This document shows positions 4,407 through 8,520 of a stretch of DNA of 64,000 bases, in pieces. The stretch spans positions 1-64,000 of the forward strand of contig JAJZNW010000093.1 of the NCBI GenBank assembly GCA_021811615.1, in the 5' to 3' direction. Position numbers and translations under genes: made by a program. The DNA is from Bacteroidota bacterium. Lineage in GTDB: Bacteria > Bacteroidota > Ignavibacteria > Kryptoniales > JAKASW01. The notes under the pieces are model-generated. The model searched no databases and was not told where the DNA came from. It worked only from the letters and a program-made list of their open reading frames with translations. Each line of letters begins with the position of its first letter. Position 1 is the stretch's first letter.

Positions 4407-4601
4407 TTGATTAACCTCCTGACTTGTTTTTTATTCTCGGTGTTTTTGCTCCTGGAACGCCGCTCATGCCCCGCAAATGGGTAACCGGCGTCGAATAGTG
4501 TAGCAATTCCTGCATTTATCTCAATTTTGAGATCGCTAATGCTCATGAACAGAAACACATCCCCTCCAAACGAATAAAAAGTGGCATTACTCGACTCCCG
4601 C

Positions 4602-4892
4602 GAGCGCTTCCCTGGCCTGTCCGAGCCTTTCCCCGGCACCCGCCAGCCTTCGCCGGGTCTATCCGAGCCTTCCCCCGGTCTCCGCCAGCCTTCGCCGGCT
4701 CTATCCGAGCCTTCCCCCGGTCTCCGCCAGCCTTCGCCGGCTCTATCCGAGCCTTCCCCCGGTACCCGCCAGCCTTCGCCGGCTCTATCCGAGCCTTCCC
4801 CCGGTCTCCGCCAGCCTTCGCCGGCTCTATCCGAGCCTTCCCCCGGTCTCCGCCAGCCTTCGCCGGCTCTATCCGAGCCTTCCCCCGGTACA
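4602..4892. repeat. 42-bp tandem repeat (6.5 units, 21-bp half-units)
   Basis: Six 42-bp units run from 4620 to 4871, with a further half unit to 4892 and a degenerate half unit before 4620. Each unit is two related 21-bp halves. Because 42 and 21 are multiples of three and the units lack stops, repeats stay open in more than one frame. The plus frame reads SEPSPGLRQPSPAL repeated; the minus frames read GEGSDRAGEGWRRP or GKARIEPAKAGGDR repeated. No frame has a strong ribosome site (the plus frame would start at GTG 4581), so coding is unproved. Units differ at a few fixed positions (L/T and A/G in the plus reading), which points to duplication rather than an assembly loop. Confidence 0.85.
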
Positions 4893-5976: not shown

Positions 5977-8520
5977 TCAGTTCCTGCTTATTCCTTCGGT
6001 TTCGATCTTGAACTGAGCGGTTGAAGCCTGGATCTCGTCAGCAAGTCCGGCGAGCCCTTCGGCGATGTTGCCGACATCTTCCGCCTCCTGGGTCGCCTTG
6101 ACGGTGTTCCCGGAAATTTCGTTTATCGTGTCGGCATTCATCTTACTGATCGCGGCGACGTTGTTGATCATCTCCACCGTATGCTTCACGCTGGTGCTCA
6201 GCTCTTCGGTAGCGCTCATGTTCTGGTCGACGACAGCGGATATTTTTTCGATGGACTTAAGGAGACCGGACATCGTTTTGACTACCGCACTGTTGGCGGT
6301 AGCCATAATGTCGACCTGCTTGCTCATGTTTTCGGACGATGAAAGGAGTTTGTTTATGGCATCGCCCGATTCGGTTGCCAGCCTGCTCCCTTCTTTCACT
6401 TTCTCAACGATCGTCTTGACGGACTTACTTGCGTCCTCGATGTCTTCCTCGACTTTATTGATGAGAGTGGAGGTCTCCTTTGTGGCGGCGGCGGAACGTT
6501 CCGCGAGGTTTCGGACCTCATCAGCGACGACGGCGAAGCCTCTTCCATGCTCTCCCGCCCTTGCTGCCTCGATAGCGGCGTTCAGGGCGAGAAGGTTCGT
6601 CTGTTCCGCTATCTGTTCTATATTCTCGATGATCCCCTCGATTTGCTCCGATTGTTTGGCCATCCCCTCTATCTTAGAGGCGAATGCAGCGACCGTCTCC
6701 TCTATTTTCTTCATTTGATCGAGGTTTTCCATGACGGCGCTCGCGCCAGCCTTGGATACGCCGATGGCTTCGGAAGAGGCGGAGACGACGGTCCGTGCGC
6801 TCGCGTTTGCCGAGTCTATCGCACGCGATATCTCGGCCGCAGATGACGACACGGTCTCGACCGCGATCCTCTGGTCGTGCGAGTCCTTCGCGATCGTGTC
6901 GATGGCAGCGGCGATCTGTTCCATGTTAGCGTTCGCGTTGCTTATGGAGAGGGCCTCTTCATTAAGGCTCCTCGCCATTTCCTGGATCGTATTGGAGTTG
7001 TAGCTCGAGACCTCGACGGACTGTTTGGCAGTCCCTGCAAGATCATGACTCAGGCTGAGGAGCTTCTTCGACCTTCCCACGAGCGCTCCGAATATCCCTC
7101 GCAGGCTCAGCGGTTCGCTGTTGAACGTCGAAACTACTATTCCTCTTTCGACCGCCTTGTTGATAATGGGCACAAGGTTCTTGTCGAATATGCCGATGCT
7201 AATCGCGTCGTACCTGTTCTTTATGCATTCTTCGATTGCCGGAGCGTAAATCTCGGCGCTCACATTGATGATACCGTTAACGAACTGGCCTTTGGGGACT
7301 ATCCAATCGACCACTCCGTTGAGCTGCCTCAATTCTCTCGTGGCGGCATCGACACCCGACCTGAACACTTCCCAGAATTTGTCACCGTCTCTGCCGAGAA
7401 CGGCTATGCGGACGGTCCTTTCGCTCCTTCTCATCGGCTTGGGGCGCCTCGCGGCCATTGCCTCCGTCTCGATGATGCCTTTCCCGGGCTGCCAGAACTG
7501 TGAATAGTTCTGAGGAGTTACGACATCCATCCTCGTCAGCATTCTCGATTGCTGGGGCTGCCAGTTGGCAGTGAGCCTGTTGAACAGGTGTATCACGGGA
7601 TCATGTCCCTGCGCGTAGACGTCCTGTGAAAGCGTCGCAGTAACGACACCCTGCCTGACATAATCCATCGTATTGTCGGCAAGATCGTGGCACACGACTT
7701 TGACAAGCCCTGTCTTCCCCGTTTCGGCAACCGCCTTCGCTGCGCCGGCCCCTCCGTACGTCACGTACACACCTGAAAGGTCGTGATATCTCTTCAGGAA
7801 AGTCTTTGTCTGCTCATACGTCAGCTCGAAATTCAAATTCGTTTCCGCAATATCCAAAACTGAAATCGATGGATATTTTTCCCGCAGGACATTCTGGAAA
7901 CCTTTTCGCCTGAGATCGTGTCCGATGATGTTGAACTTCTCGAGTAGGATCACGACCTTCCCTTTTCCGTTCATCGCCTTGCCCATAGCTTCGCCGCAGG
8001 CCTGGCCTTCGAGATATGAATCGGCGCCGACATATACGAGTCTCTGACACGGCCTGTCGGTCGCGGAGTTGAATTCCTTCGTAGCGTCGTTAAGATGCCC
8101 GATTATCGAGTTCAAACCTCGCACCATCTCGCCGACACTTCCGTTGACGGACGAGCTTATCGCGTTGGACTCCATCTTGATTCCGGCTGTGAGGTTGCCG
8201 TGTGCCATCTCGGTCATGGCAGTAGAAAGCGAAACGAAATCCTTGTCGGCCATCTCCTTCACTTTGCCGGACACGAATTTTAGAGGACCGTACATAGTAG
8301 AGTTGATATAGACGGCGAGCAACACGGCGACGATGAGGCTTCCAAGTATACCGGTGGTCATCAGGAATCTCGCTACGGATGTCGACTGCGCCCCCATCGA
8401 TGCCAGTACGTCCATAATTTGGAAGTACCCCGCCACTTCGAAGGCGAAGAAGAGGAGGATCAGCATTATTCCGATGTGGAGAGAGTAGCCCTTCAGAAAT
8501 TTCTTGATTCGGTTCAGCAT
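5977..8520 (-). CDS. Methyl-accepting chemotaxis protein with internal, lobe-swapped sugar-binding fold
   Basis: 847 residues. Two membrane segments (about 13-33 and 52-72) flank a periplasmic loop of only about 20 residues, too small for a ligand domain. A HAMP-like region follows (about 73-125). Residues 158-345 match the second lobe of a RbsB-type binding protein ([18 protein letters not shown], then [31 protein letters not shown]). Residues 368-470 match the first lobe ([20 protein letters not shown], then [28 protein letters not shown]). The lobes are thus in reverse order and, by topology, cytoplasmic. Residues 500-847 are the signalling coiled coil, with the tip [21 protein letters not shown] at about 639-659. 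The start has TAGGTAGG just upstream. The domain order is seen in the sequence; ligand and function are inference. Confidence 0.88.

Follow-up and report, generated by a model that had tools for sequence, protein, structure and literature searches.

Domain Order of the Receptor Gene

What could a chemoreceptor sense with a sugar-binding-protein fold that lies between its membrane anchor and its signaling hairpin and has its two halves in reverse order? This question is raised by a gene at 5977..8520 on the minus strand of the window (the whole stretch of 64,000 nucleotides analyzed here, from contig JAJZNW010000093.1 of a Bacteroidota bacterium). The first-pass annotation had read this stretch as a single receptor gene, and the analysis confirmed an exact open reading frame for a chemoreceptor of 847 amino acids, with homologs that are full length. 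As judged from sequence, the product is a membrane-anchored chemoreceptor, and the following order of parts holds from the N to the C terminus: two membrane helices, a HAMP-like segment, a reversed Peripla_BP_4 domain, and a signaling hairpin. All feature coordinates given below are on the minus strand.

The Pfam scan placed an MCPsignal match at residues 604–763 (6232..6711; PF00015, 140 bits). MCPsignal and Peripla_BP_4 were both matched in all 13 members of the family, and the conserved hairpin of methyl-accepting chemotaxis proteins (PF00015) was thus present in 13/13. By heptad count, a methylation-type motif, and alignment, the methylation and signaling hairpin was assigned to residues ~474–838 (6007..7101), with its tip near E657. 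Approximately 26 heptads lead from residue 474 to the tip and an equal number from the tip to residue 838, and these matching arms indicate that the hairpin starts directly after the binding domain. The motif SATEELSTS at residue 769, which fits the methylation-type pattern, was found in 10 of the 13 members and was absent from L023, L025, and L026.

A HAMP domain after the membrane helix is common, but not universal, in methyl-accepting chemotaxis proteins, and a HAMP-like region had been proposed for this receptor. Pfam HAMP gave no match in the receptor up to E 10, on the fragment, or, at 0.01, in any of the 13 members. When profiles were compared with each other (hhalign), using 14 HAMP domains from this genome, however, residues 87–148 (8077..8262) were matched at 89.8% probability with a score of 33.9 and a seven-residue insertion, whereas the maximum score of 30 column-shuffle controls was 13.1. 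A plain HMM of the same 14 domains matched the segment weakly. The results suggest that residues 87–148 are a diverged HAMP-like segment, a label less firmly supported than those of the other parts. Elsewhere in the genome, a 1303-residue chemoreceptor frame (G000:C96:26149-28059; L007, L077) carries five weak HAMP matches in a row and is perhaps a poly-HAMP receptor.

Distribution of the Family

The searches covered a sample of the window's phylum, plasmids, virus contigs, and one scan of genome contigs for close relatives. In 395 genomes of the phylum, the protein search gave three matching genomes at 1e-20, the receptor's own included, and the profile search gave seven at 1e-20, three of them over the whole domain. 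When 294 genomes of the class were searched with the profile, matches at 1e-8 were found in 31, and in 12 of these the match spanned the whole permuted domain; the 12 comprise 8 of the 13 listed from the window's genus (own included) and four in two other families. In the remaining 19, the match was confined to the region around the query's first piece. Of 72,556 plasmid records, 77 matched and one did so over most of the query, namely Leptolinea sp. HRD-7 (Chloroflexota). Its protein, annotated as "hypothetical protein," shows 34.9% identity over 99%, has Peripla_BP_4 preceding MCPsignal, and has the same membrane layout as the receptor.

The scan of genome contigs with a close-sequence pattern gave three loci, whose proteins were identical to those of three class genomes; the 13 alignment rows therefore stand for 12 genomes and one plasmid. 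In the virus contigs, 12 stretches matched a pattern, and no relative was among them. In a tree of the signaling domain (midpoint-rooted, seven outside rows, subject to a long-branch warning), the Leptolinea protein grouped with the family; the tree held 12 of the 13 family rows, L010 having been missed by the tip pattern and left out. The entire receptor might have a single origin in the class and in Chloroflexota.

Circular Permutation of the Binding Domain

The first-pass annotation had described the second lobe (residues 158–345) as lying before the first (residues 368–470). In a scan of the whole receptor, Peripla_BP_4 was matched in two stretches, the better being residues 156–306 against profile positions 91–244. 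When residues 144–346 were scanned alone, profile positions 93–244 were matched at residues 158–306 (98 bits), and when residues 347–490 were scanned alone, positions 6–89 were matched at residues 376–469 (32.8 bits, E 7.1e-08), a score below the Peripla_BP_4 whole-protein cut-off of 35.1. Rejoined in natural order, the two pieces gave a single unbroken match to profile positions 7–244 of 258 with 140.6 bits.

A natural-order model was then used, both singly and doubled in tandem. It consisted of 27 proteins and 306 columns, 25 of the proteins coming from the fetched loci that match only the query's first piece (25 of 27 matching proteins were kept; L035 and L058, with short matches, were left out) and the other two being E. 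coli RbsB and MglB. Against the single model, each of the 13 receptors was split, with columns ~118–301 first and columns ~16–113 second. Against the tandem model, each of the 13 gave a single domain alignment that began at column 118 (110 in L022), crossed the junction of the two copies, and ended at columns 419–421 after running through one copy, whereas none of the 27 natural-order proteins crossed the junction and each was confined to one copy; as rows of the model itself, the latter are a control for order and not for detection. Outside the receptor gene, the window's genome has seven Peripla_BP_4 matches, each of them continuous and in natural order.

Accordingly placed on the gene, the natural second part of the domain comes first, at residues 158–345 (7486..8049; Pfam profile 93–244, model columns 118–301), and the natural first part comes second, at residues 368–470 (7111..7419; Pfam profile 6–89, model columns 16–113). 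The natural order of parts is kept in none of the 13 members, and the Peripla_BP_4 domain is complete once re-ordered, save for ~4 model columns that are missing at the cut (columns ~113/118) in most of them. By its order and completeness at the sequence level, the domain is a clean circular permutation; the reverse order, common to all 13 homologs and borne out by the tandem model, is not due to chance. The lobe order first described was thus upheld, and the same order was found in the other genomes. Two origins had been offered for it, a circular permutation or the remnant of a tandem pair of binding domains. Permutations usually arise when a tandem duplication is trimmed at its two ends, and the permutation is supported by the tandem model (13/13 versus 0/27), although both routes yield the same product. 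Since the pieces complement each other almost exactly and hardly overlap, the domain has the look of a finished permutation.

The two pieces are joined by a circle-closing linker at residues 346–367 (7420..7485), which is of the same length in 12 of the 13 members, has an extra residue in the plasmid protein, and carries a conserved R-x-K-P motif in 13/13. N91 of MglB aligns with N467, in the second piece of the receptor, which suggests that four strands have been moved and that the cut is where the chain first crosses between the lobes. A cut at this position would connect the HAMP side to one lobe and the output helix to its partner. The chain ends are ~4 model columns apart in the natural fold and should therefore be near each other.

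Membrane Topology

The hydropathy profile of the receptor showed two peaks, at residues 18–36 and 52–70, the first being broad from residue ~12; the highest later peak was 1.05. The first membrane helix was accordingly set at residues ~13–33 (8422..8484) and the second at residues ~52–74 (8299..8367), and hydropathy and alignment placed a weakly conserved short periplasmic loop at residues ~34–51 (8368..8421). The segments are separated by ~15–20 residues, in agreement with the two helices and 20-residue loop noted earlier. Two N-terminal membrane segments, 13–27 residues apart, were predicted by hydropathy in all 13 members, and the N-terminal tail was net positive in each (+1 to +5), as in the inside-positive arrangement. 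The only later segment above threshold was at residues 743–761 of L022, inside the signaling hairpin (score 1.36 versus 1.3).

Between the binding and signaling domains, hydropathy predicted no membrane segment in any of the 13 members. Because the signaling domain must be inside, the binding domain is then predicted to be inside as well; a periplasmic location was rejected. The cytoplasmic placement that had been proposed is thus well supported, with hydropathy as its one basis. By the same measure, the membrane anchor and cytoplasmic signaling part of methyl-accepting chemotaxis proteins were present in 13/13.

Candidate Ligand Site and Selection

Ten glucose contacts of EcMglB, as given in Table 2 of PMC4990184, were mapped onto the receptor by alignment. 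F16, N91, R158, D236, and N256 of MglB correspond to F382, N467, R204, D279, and Q299, which are invariant in 13/13, and D14 corresponds to D380, which is D in 10 of the 13 members. H152, D154, W183, and N211 are replaced by I198, G200, L229, and Y255. Invariant residues thus make up five of the ten mapped contacts as compared with 48 of 291 positions overall (P = 0.013, depending on one alignment), a modest enrichment that is supportive but not strong. The results suggest that the domain likely binds a ligand. The earlier proposal of ligand binding is therefore plausible from the conserved contacts, but the four replaced contacts weigh against carrying the MglB ligand over, and glucose or galactose as the ligand is unsupported.

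The nearest solved chains among the matches listed were the sugar-binding proteins 2qvc and 2h3h. A Pfam scan of the neighboring open reading frames of the window found no sugar gene beside the receptor, and no part of an ABC importer was found by Pfam in the nine nearby frames scanned. The features of an exported solute-binding protein of an ABC importer are absent, in that the domain is cytoplasmic by hydropathy and no importer gene is among those nine frames.

In the comparison of the window with L009, dN/dS was 0.20 for the membrane/loop part, 0.044 for the HAMP-like segment, 0.030 for the first piece, 0.043 for the linker, 0.041 for the second piece, and 0.030 for the signaling part. In the comparison with L011, in which dS was valid in three of six regions, the values were 0.51 for the membrane/loop part, 0.088 for the HAMP-like segment, and 0.090 for the second piece. 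Both pieces of the binding domain are under strong purifying selection, and the membrane/loop part is less so. Conservation marks the inner domain as the sensor, and not the loop.

Comparison With Known Systems

In PMC4990184, TpMglB-2 (Tp0684) is described as the founding member of a proposed "Type Ic / Cluster Bc" of permuted binding proteins and as a lipoprotein of the periplasm that works with an ABC importer. Three strands of its N-lobe have been moved, a fourth crossover arises, and N91 of MglB becomes N19 near the N terminus (PMC4990184). TpMglB-2 is the closest precedent for the receptor, with which it shares a circularly permuted type I fold, a natural chain start moved to the end, and a linker that closes the circle. 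The cut point differs, however, because the counterpart of MglB N91 is N467 in the second piece of the receptor, and the receptor appears to have moved four strands, with the cut at the first crossover, as compared with three in TpMglB-2. The receptor domain is also predicted to be cytoplasmic and lies within a chemoreceptor, unlike the periplasmic protein with its importer. The TpMglB-2 chain was not named among the 60 of 69 matching solved sequences listed, a comparison made by name.

The Peripla_BP_4 sugar-binding proteins (2qvc, 2h3h, and 3c6q, the best among the matches listed, and E. coli RbsB and MglB) have the same domain, which the receptor matches at nearly full length after re-ordering, but they are exported, in natural order, partnered with ABC importers, and without a signaling hairpin. 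In four class genomes (L027, L028, L029, and L030), a single frame was seen by eye to combine an ABC permease-like part with a following natural-order binding protein. Chemoreceptors with cytoplasmic sensor domains such as PAS exist, and they share with the receptor the cytoplasmic side of the sensor and the conserved signaling hairpin; the sensor of the receptor differs from theirs in being a permuted binding-protein domain after a HAMP-like segment. A Peripla_BP_4-type domain in a signaling protein is also found in the sensor kinase chain 2x7x ("SENSOR PROTEIN"). In kinases of this type, unlike in the receptor, the binding domain is periplasmic and in natural order, and the output is a kinase. 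Among the matches listed from openly licensed papers in PubMed Central, there was no chemoreceptor with a permuted binding-protein domain.

Proposed Mechanism and Alternatives

We propose that this chemoreceptor senses through its permuted cytoplasmic Peripla_BP_4 domain and acts in metabolite taxis rather than in the sensing of periplasmic sugars, a reading to which we give a probability of roughly 0.6. The permuted type I domain would sit within the helical stalk, with the HAMP-like segment before it and the methylation helices after it, and its two pieces would come together as one two-lobed site. The lobes would be closed by a small cytoplasmic ligand, which may be a sugar, a polyol, or a nucleoside-like metabolite and is perhaps imported. 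The chain would enter through the C-lobe from the HAMP-like segment and leave through the N-lobe into the methylation helix, both at the hinge, so that closure would displace the helix that leaves the domain relative to the HAMP helix that enters it and thereby alter CheA activity and swimming. The permutation may be what allows a binding domain to sit within a helical stalk. The same genome holds two CheA-type dimerization domains, four CheR, seven CheW-domain, one flagellin, and ten MCPsignal matches.

Alternatively, the folded domain might bind no ligand and serve as a spacer or dimer-packing element in a receptor that senses membrane state, redox, or array neighbors. Only five of the ten mapped contacts are invariant, four are replaced, and no sugar gene adjoins the receptor, all of which would fit a spacer; the strong purifying selection on both pieces and the presence of contact-type residues (R204, D279, and Q299) among the invariant positions make it unlikely. 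The pieces might also be what is left of a decayed tandem pair of binding domains, and not one working domain, which would agree with duplication and terminal loss as the usual route. This is highly improbable, however, given that in 13/13 the pieces are near-exact complements that add up to one model copy minus ~4 columns and that neither is decaying by dN/dS.

The window's genome is a 150-contig assembly that is 84% complete, in which an assembly or annotation artefact might have joined unrelated genes; this was rejected, since the same full-length gene occurs in 12 class genomes and in a complete Chloroflexota plasmid record. The pieces might also pair across the receptor dimer by domain swapping, with sites between subunits, an arrangement that we regard as improbable, if less so than the decay of tandem domains. 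Chemoreceptors are dimers, and a linker of ~22–25 residues might permit either pairing, but the pieces are consecutive and the linker is of near-constant length. The permuted TpMglB-2, with such a linker, closes within one chain according to PMC4990184.

For metabolite sensing by a permuted cytoplasmic domain, a wider interpretation can be put forward tentatively, at somewhat below even odds. The family would be one of chemoreceptors with a hinge-permuted binding fold spliced into the coiled coil, in which the lobes form the ends of a helical joint that reports a cytoplasmic metabolite to the array. The type I fold would then have been permuted a second time in nature, separately from the first, and the family would be nature's equivalent of the permuted binding proteins built for biosensors. 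In chemotaxis, binding proteins are best known as periplasmic proteins that hand ligands to receptors; here, the binding protein is built into the receptor itself, on the opposite side of the membrane, after the HAMP-like segment. This suggests that what the cell steers by may be something sensed in its own cytoplasm. If so, the receptor would show how a two-lobed clamp drives a helical stalk, would explain the use of the permutation, which brings both chain ends to the hinge, and would offer a way to study taxis that depends on metabolism in bacteria known largely through metagenomes.

Gene Surroundings

The neighbors of the receptor in the window include CoA_binding_2, DUF6544, VIT1, and CMAS proteins by Pfam and, as far as Pfam tells, are unrelated to sugars. 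Beside some relatives, different frames were seen by eye, which gives the impression of a non-conserved neighborhood. At G000:C71:5965-6534, a CheR match lies within a 987-residue open frame, perhaps a fusion of CheR to other domains. An intergenic repeat at positions 4598–4889 of the window consists of seven tandem copies of a 42-base unit (93% matches), through which frames are open on both strands.
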